Assembly: GCA_002256465.1 (NCBI GenBank)
Contig: NQJG01000024.1
Location: forward strand, 1-13,492
Source of the DNA: Methylococcaceae bacterium NSP1-1
GTDB lineage: Bacteria > Pseudomonadota > Gammaproteobacteria > Methylococcales > Methylomonadaceae
DNA: 13,492 bases
Reading direction: 5' to 3'
Part shown: in pieces, positions 5,024 to 13,492 of the stretch
Layout of the letters: each line of letters opens with the position of its first letter
Position numbering within the stretch: the first letter of the stretch is position 1
The notes under the pieces: model-generated
What the model saw: only the letters and a program-made list of their open reading frames with translations
Database searches by the model: none
What the model was told of the DNA's origin: nothing
Translations under genes and position numbers: made by a program

Positions 5024-5715
5024 ATGCCCAATGCACGCATCTACTTATCGATAATTATCGCACTATTAATCGGCATTTTTTTCTATTTTGATCTGCAGCA
5101 ACTTCTCACGCTGGATAACTTAAAGTCTCAACAGGAAACTATCGTAACTTATCGTAATGATCATCCATTGCTGGCGACTGCTATCTATGCAATTGTTTAT
5201 ATCGCAGTCACCGGTTTATCACTACCCGGTGCTACAATCTTGACACTTGCTGGCGGTGCGGTATTCGGGTTATTGTGGGGCACGCTGATTGTGTCTTTTG
5301 CTTCCAGTATAGGTGCGACGCTTGCTTTTCTGGCAGCCCGTTTTCTATTCCGTGATGCCGTCAATGACAAGTTCTCAATGCCAAGTTCAATCTTCATCTC
5401 AAAGAAATCGATACAGGCATAGCCCGCGATGGTGCTTTTTATTTATTCACTTTAAGATTGGTACCTCTGGTTCCTTTTTTTGTTATCAATCTTGTGATGG
5501 GATTAACTGTTCTAAAAACCCGTACTTTCTACTGGGTTAGTCAAATAGGCATGTTGGCCGGAACACTGGTTTATGTAAATGCAGGAACACAGCTGGCTAA
5601 AATCGAATCTTTGTCCGGCATTTTGTCACCTGCATTGGTCGGCTCCTTCGCTTTAATAGGGGTATTCCCTATCATTGCCAAGAAAATCGTGGAATATTTC
5701 CCGCATGCCCAATAA
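5024..5715 (+). pseudogene. TVP38/TMEM64 (DedA-like) membrane protein, frameshifted
   Basis: Two reading frames together make one SNARE-associated/TVP38-type inner-membrane protein of about 230 residues. The first (5024-5422) has an N-terminal membrane segment (residues 7-24), then the family core with SLPGATILTLAGGAVFG and the segment ending LAARFLFRD. It then turns into out-of-frame sequence and stops at 5420-5422. The second frame, open from 5368, reads AKFNLHLKEIDTGIARDGAF, then FTLRLVPLVPFFVINLVMG and YVNAGTQLAKIESLSG to the stop at 5713-5715. Restoring one base near 5370-5380, for example one A in the CAATG at 5376-5380, would rejoin them through DKFSNAKFNLHLKEID. A plausible internal start in the second half is TTG 5458, but half a protein would lack the core. 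So this is a broken gene or a sequencing/assembly error. Its 3' end overlaps the oxidoreductase start by 11 bp; the two are commonly adjacent or fused. Confidence 0.82.
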
Positions 5716-7343: not shown

Positions 7344-8423
7344 TTACAACGTATTTACAGCATTCAATTCCTGGAATGCTTGCTCTAAACGGGTTACCAT
7401 ACCTACTTCACCTGCGCGTTGCCATACACGTGGGTCGTAGTATTTTTTATTAGGTTTGTCATCACCGTCGGGGTTACCGATTTGACCTTGCAAATAAGCT
7501 TCGTTTTGCTTGTAGTAGTTCATAATGCCTTCCCAAGTAGCCCATTGGGTATCAGTATCGATGTTCATTTTAACTACGCCGTAGCTGATTGATTCTTTTA
7601 TTTCCGCAGCAGTAGAACCTGATCCTCCATGAAATACAAAATTCAATGTATTCGCAGGCACATCATACTTTTCAGTTACGTATTTTTGCGAATTGTCCAA
7701 TATGGTTGGTGTCAATTTAACGTTACCAGGCTTGTATACCCCGTGCACATTACCAAAAGAAGCCGCGATAGTGAAACGGTGGCTGATTTTGCTTAATTCT
7801 TCATAAGCATAGGCAACATCTTCAGGCTGTGTATACAGCAAAGAGTGATCCATATCGGTGTTATCGACACCGTCTTCTTCACCGCCGGTAACACCCAATT
7901 CAATTTCAAGCGTCATACCCATTTTGGACATGCGCTTTAAATATTGGCCGCAAATTTCGATGTTTTCTTTCAGGCTTTCTTCAGACAAATCCAACATGTG
8001 CGAGCTGAATAGTGGCTTACCTTTTTCAGCAAAATGTTTCTCGCCGGCATCTAACAAACCATCAATCCAAGGCAACAATTTTTTTGCCGCGTGGTCTGTG
8101 TGTAAAATAACTGGCACGCCGTAAGCTTCTGCCATCAGGTGTACATGTTGGGCACCTGAGATAGCGCCCAGAATTGCAGTTTGCTGCCCTTCCAGCTTAA
8201 GGCCTTTACCAGCAACAAATTGAGCACCGCCATTAGAGAATTGGATCACTACAGGAGATTTAACTTTAGCTGCGGCTTCCAATACAGCATTGATTGAATC
8301 TGTATTGATAACATTAACAGCCGGCATTGCAAACTTGTTTTCTTTGCAAATCGCAAAGACTTTTTGTACATCTTCACCGGTTACAACACCGGGTTTAACT
8401 ACATCTAAAATTTTTTGTGACAT
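7344..8423 (-). CDS. fba: class II fructose-bisphosphate aldolase
   Basis: Zinc-dependent aldolase of 359 residues, the same length as E. coli FbaA and close to it along the whole chain. It cleaves fructose 1,6-bisphosphate to dihydroxyacetone phosphate and glyceraldehyde 3-phosphate, reversibly, in the cytoplasm. The catalytic Asp and first Zn ligand are D110 and H111 (HTDHAAKKLLPW). E175 (LEIELG), H227 (SFGNVHGVYKPG) and H265 (FVFHGGSGS) match the remaining metal-site residues, and NIDTDTQWATWEG carries the phosphate- and substrate-binding Asn/Asp. It is class IIA by length and motifs. The gene is last of a - strand run after tal, 102 bp downstream, and is closed by a strong terminator. AGGA (8434-8437 on -) precedes the ATG. 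In a RuMP organism it would serve both glycolytic cleavage and regeneration of ribulose 5-phosphate; the organism type is inferred. Confidence 0.97.
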   Translation of the reverse strand: MSQKILDVVKPGVVTGEDVQKVFAICKENKFAMPAVNVINTDSINAVLEAAAKVKSPVVIQFSNGGAQFVAGKGLKLEGQQTAILGAISGAQHVHLMAEAYGVPVILHTDHAAKKLLPWIDGLLDAGEKHFAEKGKPLFSSHMLDLSEESLKENIEICGQYLKRMSKMGMTLEIELGVTGGEEDGVDNTDMDHSLLYTQPEDVAYAYEELSKISHRFTIAASFGNVHGVYKPGNVKLTPTILDNSQKYVTEKYDVPANTLNFVFHGGSGSTAAEIKESISYGVVKMNIDTDTQWATWEGIMNYYKQNEAYLQGQIGNPDGDDKPNKKYYDPRVWQRAGEVGMVTRLEQAFQELNAVNTL

Positions 8424-8468: not shown

Positions 8469-8531
8469 AAGCCATTCGGATAATGGTTAAGAAAACTATC
8501 CACTACTGAATGGCTTAGAACTTTCTTAACC
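8469..8531 (-). other. nested alternative hairpins between tal and fba
   Basis: Two inverted repeats interleave. AAGCCATTC (8469-8477) pairs with GAATGGCTT (8508-8516), and the stem can continue with GGATA (8478-8482) and TATCC (8497-8501), leaving a 6-base bulge. GGTTAAGAAA (8485-8494) pairs with TTTCTTAACC (8522-8531), which overlaps the tal stop. The two cannot form together. No long T-run follows on the - strand. It could be an RNA processing or stabilising element that sets the tal-to-fba ratio. Function is not shown. Confidence 0.4.
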
Positions 8532-9512
8532 CTCTAGGCTGGCCAAACGAGCTGCGAGAAGTTCTTCGAGTGCTTCCAATGCTTTTGCGAAACCACTGAT
8601 GCCTTCAGCCAATTTATCAGTAGCCATTCGGTTTTCAGCGTGCATACGCTCGAAAGTAGCTTTATCTATAGATAATTTTTCAATTGACAATTTAGCTGCA
8701 TTTACTGGATCAAGCTTACGTGGTAAATTGTCCTCCGTTGCTTGCAACTCTGCTAACAGAGATGGAGCAATAGTCAACAAATCACAACCAGCTAATTCTG
8801 TAATTTCACCGACATTGCGGAAACTGGCGCCCATCACTTCAGTTTTGTAGCCAAATTTTTTGTAATAATTATAGATTTCAGTAACTGAAACTACACCCGG
8901 ATCTTCTGCTGGTGCATAAGAATCACGTCCGGTATCTTTTTTATACCAGTCAAGAATACGTCCCACGAAAGGAGAAATTAAGGTGATGCCATTTTCTGCA
9001 CAAGCAATAGCCTGATGGATACCAAACAATAGTGTCAAATTAGTGTGAATACCTTCTTTTTCAAGAATTGCAGCAGCTTGAATACCTTCCCACGTAGCAG
9101 CAATTTTAATTAACACGCGGTCACGAGACACATTATGCGCTTCGTATTGTGCAATCAATTCACGTCCTTTTGCAACGGTAGCGTCAGTGTCGAAAGAAAG
9201 TCTTGCATCAACTTCGGTTGAGACACGGCCAGGAATAATCTCGAGAATTTTAAGGCCGAAAGAAACAGCAAGACGATCAAAAGCAAGGGAAACCACTTGA
9301 GCAGCTGAAGCCGCTTGCCCTAAACTAGTTCTGGCAGCTTTCAAAGTATCATCAACAATGCCTTGGTATTGTGGCATTTGTGCAGCAGCGGTAATTAACG
9401 ATGGATTAGTGGTTGCATCGCGAGGTTTGAAGGTTTCAATTGCCTGAATGTCTCCGGTATCTGCCACAACAACAGTGACTTCTCTGAGTTGTTCTAGTAA
9501 ATTTTTTCCCAT
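8526..9512 (-). CDS. tal: transaldolase (TalB type)
   Basis: Cytoplasmic transaldolase of 328 residues. It moves a dihydroxyacetone unit between sugar phosphates: sedoheptulose 7-phosphate plus glyceraldehyde 3-phosphate to erythrose 4-phosphate plus fructose 6-phosphate. The Schiff-base lysine is K136 in [12 protein letters not shown]. Family motifs include VVADTGD (D18 and D21), DATTNPSLI (32-40), [14 protein letters not shown] (95-108) and [17 protein letters not shown]. Length and motifs fit the classical TalB subfamily, not the short FSA/TalC type. AAAGG on the - strand (about 9522-9526) precedes the ATG. It is the fourth gene of the - strand run, with a 217-bp gap upstream to the repeat protein, long enough to hold its own promoter, and fba follows. 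With transketolase and aldolase it forms the carbon-rearrangement arm of the pentose-phosphate or RuMP pathway. The C-terminus ([14 protein letters not shown]) is a little longer and more acidic than the E. coli end. Confidence 0.97.
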
Positions 9513-9729: not shown

Positions 9730-10683
9730 TCAATCTTGGTAACGCATGTATTTCTCAACACCCGTTTCAGTCACAATGGGTTTCTGCTTTTCGACTAAAG
9801 CTTGTCTTACCATGTACTTGGCAACCCTACTTATCTGCGGCAGACTGGCCTGATGTTGTAAATATTTGGCAACCCCTGTTGGCCCTACCTGAGCTTCGGG
9901 TTGCTTGACTTGCTTGGCAGCTAAAGCAGCTTGTTTTGCCATGTACTTTGCAACTCTGCTTGGCTGTGGCAAGCTTTCCAGGTGTTGCAAATACTTGGCA
10001 ACGCCCGTTACTTCAACTTCCGCTTGTTTTACATGTTTTACCTGTAATGCGGCCAAAGCAGCTTGTTTTGCCATATATTTTGCAACTCTACTTGGTTGAG
10101 GCAAGCTTTCTTGATGTTGAAGATACTTGGCTACACCCGTTGCTTGAAATTGCTTTGCAGATTGTTGTATTTCTTTTGTTTGGGTTGCGGCTAATATAGC
10201 TTGTTTTGCCAAATACTTGGCGACTTTACTGGGTTGTGGCAAGCTCTCCTGATGTTTCAAATACTTTGCTACCCCACTAAGTCCTGGTGCGTCTTTTTTA
10301 TTTTTTAGATATTTTTCAACACCCGTTACTTCAGTTTCCTTGAGTGTCTCCTTTTTTTGTTTTGCCGCTAATGACTGTCTCAGCAAATACTTAGTCACTC
10401 CACTGGTCGGACTGTGCTCTTGGCCTTGTAAATACCTAGCAACTCCACTGACCAATTGAACTGGCTCCTGGTCTTCTTCCTCATTTGCACTTCTACTTGC
10501 CAATAATGTAGCTTCTTGTTTATCAAGGTACTTAGCAACACCGGTAAGTCCGCTTGGATCTTTGGTGTAAACAGGATAATCGGTCTTAGCTTCCTCAATT
10601 TCCTCAATTTTAGGTCGCTTCATGAAAAAGAATAGTCCTGCAACAGCAGGAAAAAACAAACCACTCAAGTTATTCTGTTCCAT
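9730..10683 (-). CDS. unrecognised membrane-anchored protein with 13 GVAKYL-type motifs
   Basis: Protein of 317 residues from ATG 10683; I do not recognise it as a named family. A short hydrophobic anchor spans about residues 6-21, followed by KRPK, which predicts the rest lies in the cytoplasm. Thirteen copies of [ST]-[GRK]-V-x-[KR]-Y-[LM], often followed by x-x-Q, start near residues 47, 79, 94, 120, 136, 152, 182, 198, 226, 242, 269, 285 and 307. The last copies form a bipartite unit: TGVAKYLQHQ, then SLPQP, then SRVAKYMAKQ and a K/A/Q-rich linker. No enzyme motif or Cys pair is present; the tail is rich in K, Q and A, likely helical stretches in a low-complexity chain. It follows a gene encoding a similar motif-bearing protein and precedes tal. 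An in-frame GTG at 10692 overlaps that upstream stop as GTGA; ATG 10683, with GGGGGTGA upstream, is preferred. A multivalent scaffold or clustering role is inference. Confidence 0.85.
   Translation of the reverse strand: MEQNNLSGLFFPAVAGLFFFMKRPKIEEIEEAKTDYPVYTKDPSGLTGVAKYLDKQEATLLASRSANEEEDQEPVQLVSGVARYLQGQEHSPTSGVTKYLLRQSLAAKQKKETLKETEVTGVEKYLKNKKDAPGLSGVAKYLKHQESLPQPSKVAKYLAKQAILAATQTKEIQQSAKQFQATGVAKYLQHQESLPQPSRVAKYMAKQAALAALQVKHVKQAEVEVTGVAKYLQHLESLPQPSRVAKYMAKQAALAAKQVKQPEAQVGPTGVAKYLQHQASLPQISRVAKYMVRQALVEKQKPIVTETGVEKYMRYQD
9766..10278 (-). repeat. four tandem in-frame repeats of about 114-138 bp within a coding region
   Basis: Each copy encodes [ST]GVAKYL, a linker with SLPQ, then S[RK]VAKY[LM] and a linker. 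The copies occupy 10278-10141, 10140-10009, 10008-9880 and 9879-9766 on the - strand, encoding 46, 44, 43 and 38 residues. Copies 2 and 3 are nearly identical in their first 30 residues, which suggests recent duplication or homogenisation. The motifs before residue 136 are less regular and look older. Confidence 0.85.
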
Positions 10684-10687
10684 TGAT

Positions 10688-10696
10688 ATCACCCCC
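10688..10696 (-). promoter_or_regulatory. ribosome-binding site inside upstream gene end, deciding start at 10683
   Basis: The - strand reads GGGGGTGAT, ending 4 bases before ATG 10683. It contains the TGA stop (10689-10691) of the upstream gene, so ribosomes finishing that gene lie on the next start. The GTG at 10692 within it would be an alternative start for the same frame. Confidence 0.55.
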
Positions 10697-11405
10697 GGTC
10701 GCGCATGTACTTTTCAACTCCAGTTGCTGCTTTCGCTGCCGTTGTTTTTGGTGATGCTGCTTGTTGTTTTGCCATATACTTGGCAACCCCGGTTGTTGCG
10801 GTTGCTGATGCGGATTTAACCTGCTTTTCAAGGTACCTTGAAACGCCAGTCCCTGACACCTTGTTTAGGTACTTTGCGACACCAGTTGTGAGTGCATAAG
10901 ATGCTTTGGCAGGCGCTACTGCTGGTGCTTTTTTCTGAACTGTAGTGGTACTGCGATTTTTAAAGAAATAAAATCCGGCTAAGGCAAGAACGACCAAACC
11001 AATCAGATAACTGGACATAGATGATTCTTCTTTCTTAACGCCAGCAGGAGCAGCACTTTGACTTTCAACCTGATTCGAGCCAATTTCTTCTTTCGATACA
11101 GTTGTTTTTACGGATTGAGAGGGTTTGTAGCTAGGATCGTGATACAAAACTTCCGGCTGGAAATTTGCAGCAGGATATTGTGAATCAACTTCATTGCTTA
11201 CCGCGGTACTTGATGTAGCCTTTGGAGTCGATGCAGGAGCCTTACTTGCAGCTGCTGATGGGCTATTTTTGGCGATATAGTCACTGTCCTGGTAAAGCAC
11301 TTCTGGCTGGAAGTCTGCTGCTGGATATTGTTGATCTGCGCCCGCTGCAGTACTAGCTAACAGGAGTAACGCAAATGCACCTCTAGTCAAATTATTCTTT
11401 TTCAC
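10689..11405 (-). CDS. unrecognised exported, membrane-spanning protein with 4 GVAKYL-type motifs
   Basis: Protein of 238 residues, family not recognised. A Sec signal peptide (MKKNNLTRGAFALLLLASTAAGA) is likely cleaved after residue 23. The periplasmic part holds two copies of a motif, YPAADFQPEVLYQD and YPAANFQPEVLYHD, about residues 24-43 and 74-93, exactly 50 residues apart, in A/S/T/K-rich linkers. One membrane segment lies at about 133-148 (YLIGLVVLALAGFYFF), followed by KNR, so the tail is cytoplasmic. The tail has motifs near 174 (TGVAKYL), 186 (TGVSRYL), 205 (TGVAKYM) and 228 (TGVEKYM). It thus links a periplasmic motif to the same cytoplasmic motif as its neighbour. Start: GTG at 11405, since AGGTGA lies 5 bases ahead and the product is a clean signal peptide; a GTG at 11414 would overlap that site. 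It lies 128 bp downstream of transketolase and is coupled to the next gene. The role is unknown; anchoring or clustering is inference. Confidence 0.85.
   Translation of the reverse strand: MKKNNLTRGAFALLLLASTAAGADQQYPAADFQPEVLYQDSDYIAKNSPSAAASKAPASTPKATSSTAVSNEVDSQYPAANFQPEVLYHDPSYKPSQSVKTTVSKEEIGSNQVESQSAAPAGVKKEESSMSSYLIGLVVLALAGFYFFKNRSTTTVQKKAPAVAPAKASYALTTGVAKYLNKVSGTGVSRYLEKQVKSASATATTGVAKYMAKQQAASPKTTAAKAATGVEKYMRDRG
11127..11336 (-). repeat. duplicated periplasmic YPA-FQPEVLY motif
   Basis: Two 20-residue copies are encoded at 11336-11277 and 11186-11127 on the - strand. They agree at 14 of 20 positions, with the core QYPAA-FQPEVLY and a trailing D and Y. They are separated by a 30-residue low-complexity linker and lie in the predicted periplasmic part of the protein. 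Confidence 0.8.
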
Positions 11406-11410
11406 GTTGT

Positions 11411-11418
11411 TCACCTAA
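11411..11418 (-). promoter_or_regulatory. ribosome-binding site deciding start at GTG 11405
   Basis: The - strand reads TTAGGTGA, a strong match to the anti-Shine-Dalgarno sequence, 5 bases before GTG 11405. The competing GTG at 11414 is part of this site itself and so cannot use it. Confidence 0.6.
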
Positions 11419-11533: not shown

Positions 11534-13492
11534 TTAAAGTACTGCTTCTACGTTCTTGACTACGTTTTCAACGGTGAAGCCAAACTCCTTGAAAAGCTGA
11601 CCCGCTGGAGCAGATTCGCCAAAACGGTCGAGACCTACAATTTTACCGTTGGTTCCTACGTACTTCCACCAGCCATCGGTCACACCCGCTTCAACCGCGA
11701 CACGCTTGGTCACTGCAGCAGGTAATACCGACTCACGATAAGCCGCATCTTGAGCATCAAAGATGTTTGTAGAAGGCATAGATACTACGCGTATTTTTTT
11801 ACCTGCAGCCTTCAGTTGTTCAGCCGCTTTCAGAGCCAGTTCAACTTCCGAACCTGTAGCAATTATGATAGCTTCTGGTTGACCTTCGCTGTCACTCAGA
11901 ATATATCCACCACGTGAAATTTCCTCAATTTGCTTTTGAGTACGTGGTATGTGAGGCAGATTCTGACGGGAAAAAACCAGAATAGAAGGCCCATCTTGAC
12001 GTTCAAAAGCTGCTCTCCAGGAAACAGTCGTTTCAACTGCATCGCAAGGACGCCAGACTTGTATGCTTGGAATCAAACGCAGTGTTGCGGTTTGCTCAAT
12101 AGGCTGATGAGTTGGTCCGTCTTCACCCAGACCGATAGAGTCGTGAGTATAAACAAAGATCGAACGAATCTTCATCAAAGAAGCCATTCGCAACGCATTG
12201 CGTGCATATTCCGAGAACATCAAAAATGTCGCGCCAAATGGAATTAACCCGCCATGCAGGGCTATACCATTCATTATCGCAGACATGCCGAATTCACGTA
12301 CGCCATAGTTGATGTAATTAGCATCGGGTTTATCGGCACGCATCGGTCTGTATCCAGTCCATTCCGTCATATTGGAACAGCCTAAATCTGCGGAACCCCC
12401 AAAAATTTCCGGCAAAATCTTTGCAAAACCTTCAATTGCAGCCAATGAAGATAGACGTGTAGCCGTTGTCTTAGCTTCGGCATTAACCGCACTAACAAAG
12501 GCATCGGCATCAGCTTTCCAATTTTTTGGCAATTCGCCAACTATACGACGTTGGTATTCAGCGGCCAACTCAGGGTAAGCTGCCGTGTAAGCCGCGAACT
12601 TGTCGTTCCATTCCTTTTCAGCTTTTGCACCTTTTGCTTTGGCATCCCAACCAGCATAGACTTCCGCCGGAATTACAAACGCTTCATGATCCCAACCCAG
12701 AGCAGCCTTAGTCAGATTAATCTCGTCCTGACCTAGTGCAGCGCCATGACAAGCATGGCTTCCCGCTTTATTCGGTGAACCAAAACCAATGGTGGTTTTA
12801 CAGCAGATCATCGTTGGCTTATCCGTCATAGCCTTAGCCATTTGAACTGCTTTAGCTATTGCAGCAGAATCATGTCCATCAACATCTGCAATTACATGCC
12901 AGCCATAAGCTTCAAACCGCATTGGCGTATTATCGGTAAACCAGCCTTCGACATGACCATCAATGGAAATACCGTTGTCATCCCAAAATGCTATTAACTT
13001 GCCCAATCCCAGGGTTCCTGCCAATGAGCAGGCCTCGTGAGAAATGCCTTCCATAAGACAGCCATCGCCCAAGAAGACATAGGTGTGATGATCAACAATT
13101 TTGTGGCCATCTCTGTTGAATTGAGCAGCAAGTGCCTTTTCAGCAATCGCCATACCAACAGCATTGGTAATGCCTTGGCCTAAAGGTCCTGTAGTTGTCT
13201 CAACGCCCGGCGCATAACCATACTCCGGGTGACCAGGAGTTTTGGAATGAAGCTGACGAAAGTTCTTCAGCTCTTCGATTGGTAAATCATAGCCCGTCAA
13301 GTGCAACAAGGAATAAATCAGCATTGAACCGTGACCATTCGAAAGCACGAAACGGTCCCGATTTGACCATTGTGGATTGGTCGGATTGTGGATCATAAAG
13401 TCGTTCCACAAAACCTCGGCGATATCCGCCATTCCCATTGGTGCTCCTGGATGTCCAGAGTTTGCTTTTTGTACGGCATCCATGCTCAAAGC
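11534..13492 (-). CDS. tkt: transketolase, 5' end beyond the window
   Basis: Thiamine-diphosphate enzyme that transfers two-carbon units among sugar phosphates in the cytoplasm. 652 residues are present, and the frame is open at the window edge. Compared with E. coli TktA about 13-14 N-terminal residues are missing; the visible chain begins [20 protein letters not shown], so the true start lies outside. SGHPGAP and NGHGSML give the substrate and cofactor His residues. [13 protein letters not shown] with [10 protein letters not shown] is the ThDP/metal motif. GVREFGM carries the catalytic Glu of the ThDP ring, and [16 protein letters not shown] the pyrimidine-domain active-site loop. The C-terminal domain ([17 protein letters not shown]) is intact. 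It is the first visible gene of the - strand run leading to the two repeat proteins, tal and fba. With transaldolase it interconverts C3 to C7 sugar phosphates, regenerating pentose phosphate. TTG 13489 is an internal codon, not the start. Confidence 0.97.

Follow-up and report, generated by a model that had tools for sequence, protein, structure and literature searches.

PA and PB, two repeat-motif genes in a RuMP operon

The stretch of DNA analyzed here (hereafter, the window) comprises the 13,492 nucleotides of contig NQJG01000024.1 from Methylococcaceae bacterium NSP1-1. On its minus strand lie, in this order, tkt, two genes that we call PA and PB, tal, and fba (Table 1). PA and PB share the motif [ST][GRK]Vx[KR]Y[LM], of which there are 13 copies in PB and 4 in PA. 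These copies and both reading frames had been reported in an initial annotation of the window and hold well, given that 20,000 residue shuffles per protein yielded mean counts of 0.00065 (PB) and 0.0002 (PA) and never more than one copy. PB had been started at the GTG at 10692, but we place its start at the ATG at 10683, the likelier of the two because the Met encoded there is invariant in 58 aligned PB sequences. If PB begins at this position, 5 bases separate it from PA. The best database match to PB is likewise 317 amino acids long. Promoter-like sites were no commoner in the promoter scan than in shuffled sequences, and terminator-like sites hardly commoner in the terminator scan. Elsewhere in the window (5024 to 5715), a DedA/TVP38-like protein, recognized by eye, seems to be split into two ORFs in different frames.

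Table 1. Features of the PA/PB locus, in window coordinates
Feature	Position	Strand	Description	Basis
tkt	11534..13492	-	Transketolase, truncated by the window end; upstream neighbor	Pfam
PA	10689..11414	-	241-aa bitopic membrane protein with four C-terminal motifs	ORF, alignment of 19 sequences, hydropathy
PA signal peptide	11337..11414	-	Putative; residues 1-26, AxA-type cleavage site before D27	By eye
PA lumenal repeat 1	11292..11327	-	YPAADFQPEVLY	Sequence, alignment
PA lumenal repeat 2	11142..11177	-	YPAANFQPEVLY	Sequence, alignment
PA membrane helix	10962..11018	-	Predicted; residues 133-151	Hydropathy 1.95
PA cytoplasmic tail	10704..10886	-	Predicted; motifs at residues 177, 189, 208, and 231	
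PB	9730..10683	-	317-aa multivalent protein; likely ATG start	
PB N-terminal hydrophobic stretch	10612..10668	-	Short	Hydropathy 1.15, under 1.6
PB motif array	9745..10545	-	13 motifs	Motif count, AlphaFold2 helices
tal	8526..9512	-	Transaldolase; downstream neighbor	Pfam
fba	7344..8423	-	Class II fructose-bisphosphate aldolase	Pfam

Architecture and predicted structure

The signal peptide, the single membrane helix, and the charge distribution together suggest that the tail of PA faces the cytoplasm, since it holds 15 K/R against 3 D/E, compared with 8 against 14 in the lumenal part (positive-inside). Residue A26 is invariant in an alignment of 19 PA sequences sharing 40 to 75% identity with that of the window, and the AlphaFold2 helix at residues 131 to 154 is the highest-pLDDT block of the chain. 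The initial annotation described both products as membrane proteins. With a threshold of 1.6 for hydropathy over 19 residues, this stands for PA, where 60 of the 65 extracted sequences exceed it, and fails for PB, where none of 52 does and the window protein peaks at 1.15 (the window gene was counted twice in both sets). The N-terminal stretch of PB, hydrophobic or amphipathic, may act as a weak or peripheral membrane anchor.

On the lumenal side, PA carries two YPAADFQPEVLY-type repeats that the initial annotation had missed, here in the form YPA[DN]FxPxVxY. The broader pattern YPA[x][DN][FY]xPxVxY occurs twice in 62 and once in 3 of the 65 extracted PA sequences (window gene again counted twice). 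Conservation in the PA alignment is concentrated in both modules: of 32 invariant columns, 16 fall within the 28 motif residues and 8 within the 24 YPA-repeat residues, and the V and Y of the motif are invariant. At three loci (L081, L084, and L149), PA shifts to another frame part-way, through sequencing error or in reality; a relative (L119) has a single frame. In PB, 8 to 14 copies per protein were counted by regular expression at the loci found by PB peptide patterns, and 4 to 17 with a looser expression at later loci. Linkers and spacing vary among relatives, while the motif is kept.

AlphaFold2 returned no compact fold for PA (mean pLDDT, 57; pTM, 0.16) or PB (mean pLDDT, 69; pTM, 0.19), and the motifs were predicted as separate short helices without a global fold. 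In 12 of the 13 PB copies, the residue next to the S/T is the first of the helix; the remaining copy has no helix assigned. The S/T thus resembles a helix cap, and V, Y, and L/M would share one helix face, in agreement with the i, i+3, i+4 arrangement noted previously. Both proteins thus combine many copies of a conserved short motif with a chain devoid of compact fold, as multivalent short-motif scaffolds do. The near-identical, S/T-capped helices resemble a repeated ligand for a folded partner, and the low pTM values, variable linkers, and kept motif fit the previous suggestion of a short binding motif rather than a folded repeat domain.

Family assignments

As had been anticipated, no named family accounts for these proteins: neither Pfam nor NCBIfam holds one that explains PA or PB. 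PF12220 (U1snRNP70_N) scored 26 bits on PB against a cutoff of 23, with no single stretch passing and the match lying on the repeats. PF19809 (DUF6292) reached 23.2 bits, short of its curated cutoff of 27.1; both are probably repeat or composition artifacts. The LPXTG cell wall anchor (TIGR01167) scored 14.9 bits on PA, under the curated cutoff of 15.9, and is the name that one source puts on PA homologues. Public PB homologues are labeled PF12220 (U1 snRNP 70K) or PF19809 and, in one case, "DNA integrity scanning protein DisA," labels that look like composition artifacts. Among the best 120 matches listed for each of PA and PB, the names were "hypothetical protein" or apparent artifacts. The PDB offered no sequence relatives, the best matches being a malate synthase for PB (E, 1.2) and a ribosomal protein for PA (E, 0.9). 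A literature search, with coverage outside most subscription journals, found no description of either protein. Multivalent motif scaffolds are already known as a kind, to which a bitopic member with links to the RuMP cycle would add a new variety.

Gene order in relatives

We collected 68 loci by PB peptide patterns alone, irrespective of their neighbors. PA was extracted in 63 of them, PB stood alone in four (L007 and L047 to L049), and one (L061) was left unclassed. In every locus with enough sequence, tkt lay no more than 400 bases upstream of PA (47/47), hps was found farther upstream (40/40), and tal started less than 900 bases downstream (60/60). A genomic tie to the candidate partners named in the initial annotation (Tkt, Tal, and Fba) and, in relatives, to Hps and Phi is in keeping with multivalent docking. 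Only one of the four PB-only loci has tal downstream; the three others (L047 to L049) apparently represent a second Methylomonas-type cluster, in which tkt, a small YPA protein, and PB follow one another in all four fetched loci (L127, L128, L129, and L142), with hps in view in three of these. One locus of 19001 bases (L141) presents hps-phi-tkt-PB twice in tandem, with a 473-amino-acid PB of the same printed sequence, and then hps-phi-tkt-PA-tal-fba.

The f2 family has a rearranged order, tkt-aldolase-PA-hps-phi or PA-hps-phi (L118, L121, L137, L140, and L161). At L119, the former arrangement is tandemly duplicated, with an aldolase 24% identical to that of the window. PA adjoins hps in 10 of the 11 fetched f2 loci that hold PA (the six above plus L125, L149, L164, and L165). 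The most constant neighbor through these rearrangements is hps, followed by tkt. At L120, the 6.7 kb of sequence read contained PA but no RuMP gene. In genome G316, where the PA profile matched only at 9.8e-4, no PA was found beside the two Hps genes. For the duplicated RuMP block of M. capsulatus, the accessible text of the genome paper on this species names phi, hps, fba, tkt, and tal and no PA/PB gene (PMC517821); that of a second also covers the block, again with no PA/PB gene named (PMC8527097).

Separable modules and a third motif-bearing family

The motif and YPA modules are separable. The motif occurs without YPA repeats in PB and in a short two-motif membrane protein after tkt in L146. 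YPA repeats occur without the motif in the small protein that the second Methylomonas-type cluster encodes next to tkt and in a secreted protein with three repeats, encoded at another place in the window's genome (L082). Small secreted proteins that consist of two or three such repeats and have VIYP as their last residues were seen at L082 (322-621), L083 (1498-1824), and L131 (3189-3515), the latter two alongside ABC-transporter-like ORFs (by eye). In f175 genomes, a bitopic YPA protein ends in a basic KTKRSRRR tail without the motif (L122, L123, and L134); its gene adjoins a mutS-looking ORF (by eye). A PA-like paralogue lies less than 2 kb from a PQQ methanol-dehydrogenase-type gene, which we take to be xoxF, in 3/3 fetched loci, from three genomes of a single genus (L126, L144, and L145). 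There, a convergent response-regulator-like ORF (by eye) stands between the two genes.

In all 12 loci read (L147, L148, and L184 to L193, with L184 being the L147 gene again), proteins of a third family, PC, combine 2 to 9 motifs with a Cys/His pattern at the C terminus; L188 has a second ORF with five more motifs. PC proteins have an amphipathic-looking N terminus and a long K/P/A-rich linker ahead of the Cys/His pattern. Their neighbors, judged by eye, vary between loci, and tblastn with the RuMP set retrieved beside PC only a 30% Tkt match to part of L188 and L190. Apart from subthreshold PF12220, the PC proteins of L147 and L148 had no Pfam match at E ≤ 0.1. PC proteins were matched at E ≤ 1.4e-9 by 18 of 151 Methylococcales genomes, three of them over the C-terminal part only. 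When 12 genomes were scanned with the motif pattern, 111 of 116 matches fell at PA, PB, paralogue, or PC loci, some of which were assigned by position alone; as a control, the reversed pattern gave 62 matches, 47 of them in one genome (G396). A single match in G000:C118 (L070) was taken as chance.

Distribution across genomes

The PA profile matched 119 of the 151 Methylococcales genomes. Subtracting nine f175 genomes and G280, in which the match is a YPA-only protein, leaves at most 109 with the motif. Hps was above the cutoff in 121 genomes. Both were found in 114 and neither in 25, while seven had Hps without the PA profile (G296, G304, G323, G332, G352, G364, and G370) and five had the profile without Hps (G000, G280, G317, G347, and G390). 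A motif scan of 25 chosen genomes revealed no cluster in the seven Hps-only genomes, which belong to f2, or in nine of 10 f175 genomes, eight of these nine having Hps. In the tenth (G289), the cluster sits on an 11.2-kb contig that shares the same seven matched sequences with G275, and contamination or transfer is therefore likely. Because 15 Hps-bearing Methylococcales genomes lack a motif cluster, we discarded a strict correspondence between the motif and Hps. An AMO/pMMO-family gene was present in 11 of the 16 motif-less genomes (six f175 and five f2). The existence of motif-less, Hps-bearing genomes with such genes implies that the PA/PB system is dispensable for RuMP methanotrophy.

A link to AMO/pMMO-family genes was also discarded, because the PA profile matched none of 18 f176 and none of two f177 genomes, of which 12 and two, respectively, have an AMO-family gene. 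Within the class, PA matched 3 of 274 genomes, all three Methylococcales, and in the phylum sample PB matched none of the 397 genomes other than the window's own (1/398). The initial annotation had suggested a search of other proteobacteria; among the genomes sampled, PA and PB are restricted to Methylococcales. Their occurrence tracks lineage and the RuMP operon, and even within these limits some genomes lack them. No Hps was found in the window's own genome, which is 77% complete and whose contig stops inside tkt.

We then considered the phylogeny of Hps in a tree of 66 rows (12 of 78 having been thinned by hand), five of which were entered with unknown linkage; two of these, L164 and L165, proved to be linked afterwards. 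The 40 rows entered as PA linked required 4 label changes, compared with 20.8 for shuffled labels, and the 16 rows from motif-less genomes required 3, compared with 14.6. Hps from motif-less genomes mostly falls outside the PA-linked groups, in a tree in which 15 of 62 branches are starred and most lack strong support. This pattern agrees with inheritance as an operon rather than demonstrating contact. Three Hps residues (L58, E108, and R164) were specific to PA-linked copies when 54 linked rows were compared with 21 others, excluding 3 rows of unsure linkage. The search for a conserved partner surface, suggested in the initial annotation and made here on Hps by sequence, thus yielded a weak signal that is confounded by ancestry, and we do not take these residues as a docking surface.

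A candidate docking scaffold and its alternatives

In type I methanotrophs, toxic formaldehyde arises outside the cytoplasm and is fixed by Hps within it, which raises the question of how the two steps are coupled in space. We tentatively propose, as a possibility somewhat short of probable, that PA and PB are multivalent docking scaffolds of these organisms, gathering RuMP enzymes at the membrane. As a short helix-forming ligand, every copy of [ST]GVx[KR]Y[LM] would offer a binding site. PA would anchor the scaffold and expose four copies to the cytoplasm from the inner or intracytoplasmic membrane, while PB would extend it as a longer array. The copies would bind protein, namely, at least one of the RuMP-cycle enzymes encoded alongside (Hps, Phi, Tkt, Tal, or Fba), and formaldehyde-fixing enzymes would thereby be gathered at the membrane in whose lumen methanol is oxidized. 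The YPAADF repeats of PA may in turn have a partner on the opposite, lumenal side, plausibly the formaldehyde-producing methanol dehydrogenase. The docking reading of the initial annotation is partly supported. The RuMP enzymes are suggested as clients by gene order alone, and operon membership can mirror coexpression rather than contact. Against RuMP docking, the motif also occurs in PC proteins that have no clear RuMP neighbor, and the matches to the reversed pattern, the motif-less genomes with Hps, and the lack of Hps in the window's incomplete genome weigh in the same direction; L120 and G316 lowered our confidence slightly.

Under an extended version, which we consider unlikely, PA would be a transmembrane relay, its lumenal YPAADF repeats holding methanol dehydrogenase or pMMO and the cytoplasmic GVxKYL copies of PA and PB holding Hps-Phi and Tkt. 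If so, toxic formaldehyde would be fixed at its point of entry into the cytoplasm.

The main rivals of the docking scaffold are a self-assembling matrix and membrane architecture, both sustained by the existence of PC and of RuMP methanotrophs that lack the motif. In the former, the motif would dock on one dedicated adaptor or on itself, and PA, PB, and PC would build a general matrix or condensate for diverse clients, among which RuMP enzymes are just one possibility. The range of motif number (2 to 17 per protein) and the matches to PC in 18 genomes suit such a matrix, and its standing is slightly raised by the motif array in every PC locus read; yet we still see it as rather unlikely, since all testable PA loci among the 68 lie in RuMP operons. 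The exceptions to this linkage are L120 and the methanol-dehydrogenase-side paralogues.

In the latter rival, PA and PB would shape the intracytoplasmic membranes for which Methylococcales are known: their short basic amphipathic helices would bind neighboring membranes or each other and so fix the distance between stacked membranes, the operon merely securing expression alongside central metabolism. The bitopic PA bears repeats on either side of the membrane, its basic tail with V, Y, and L/M on one side and K/R between them suits membrane binding, and the family was found here only in this membrane-rich order. How these membranes form is given as not known in the accessible text of PMC9445010, which we count in favor of this reading. 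However, linkage with hps survives the rearrangement of the operon in 10 of the 11 f2 loci fetched, nine of 10 f175 genomes lack the motif even though six of the nine have an AMO/pMMO-family gene, and the invariant T/S, V, and Y seem to exceed the needs of a generic amphipathic helix; an architectural role is therefore improbable in our judgment. Low-complexity repeat proteins without a specific ligand (e.g., spacer or stress proteins), in the operon by chance, would have the linkers and copy-number variation typical of repeat expansion, but this is highly improbable, given the same motif across several families of the order, the invariant V and Y of the PA alignment, and a gene order that holds at every testable locus of the 68.

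If PA and PB are indeed docking scaffolds, a membrane-anchored scaffold encoded in the same operon would give a testable cause to the behavior of the hexulose-phosphate synthase of M. capsulatus, which is reportedly particulate, and the motif could serve as a short tag in the construction of pathways for methane or methanol. Among known systems, CsoS2, the alpha-carboxysome scaffold, which binds Rubisco by way of motif repeats, is likewise a disordered chain with many short-motif copies, encoded beside the enzymes to be gathered. Its family was absent among the Pfam matches of PA and PB at E ≤ 1, and the immediate neighbors here are tkt, tal, and fba (hps and phi in relatives) instead of Rubisco or shell genes; furthermore, one member, PA, is bitopic. 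Rubisco linkers of the EPYC1/PYCO1 type also repeat a short motif between variable linkers, but their motif differs, and PA and PB are bacterial with immediate neighbors other than Rubisco genes. A formaldehyde producer has been brought together with Hps-Phi in artificial Mdh-Hps-Phi fusions and assemblies, described as engineered in the accessible text of PMC8879981, whereas PA and PB are a natural, membrane-anchored candidate known here from sequence alone.
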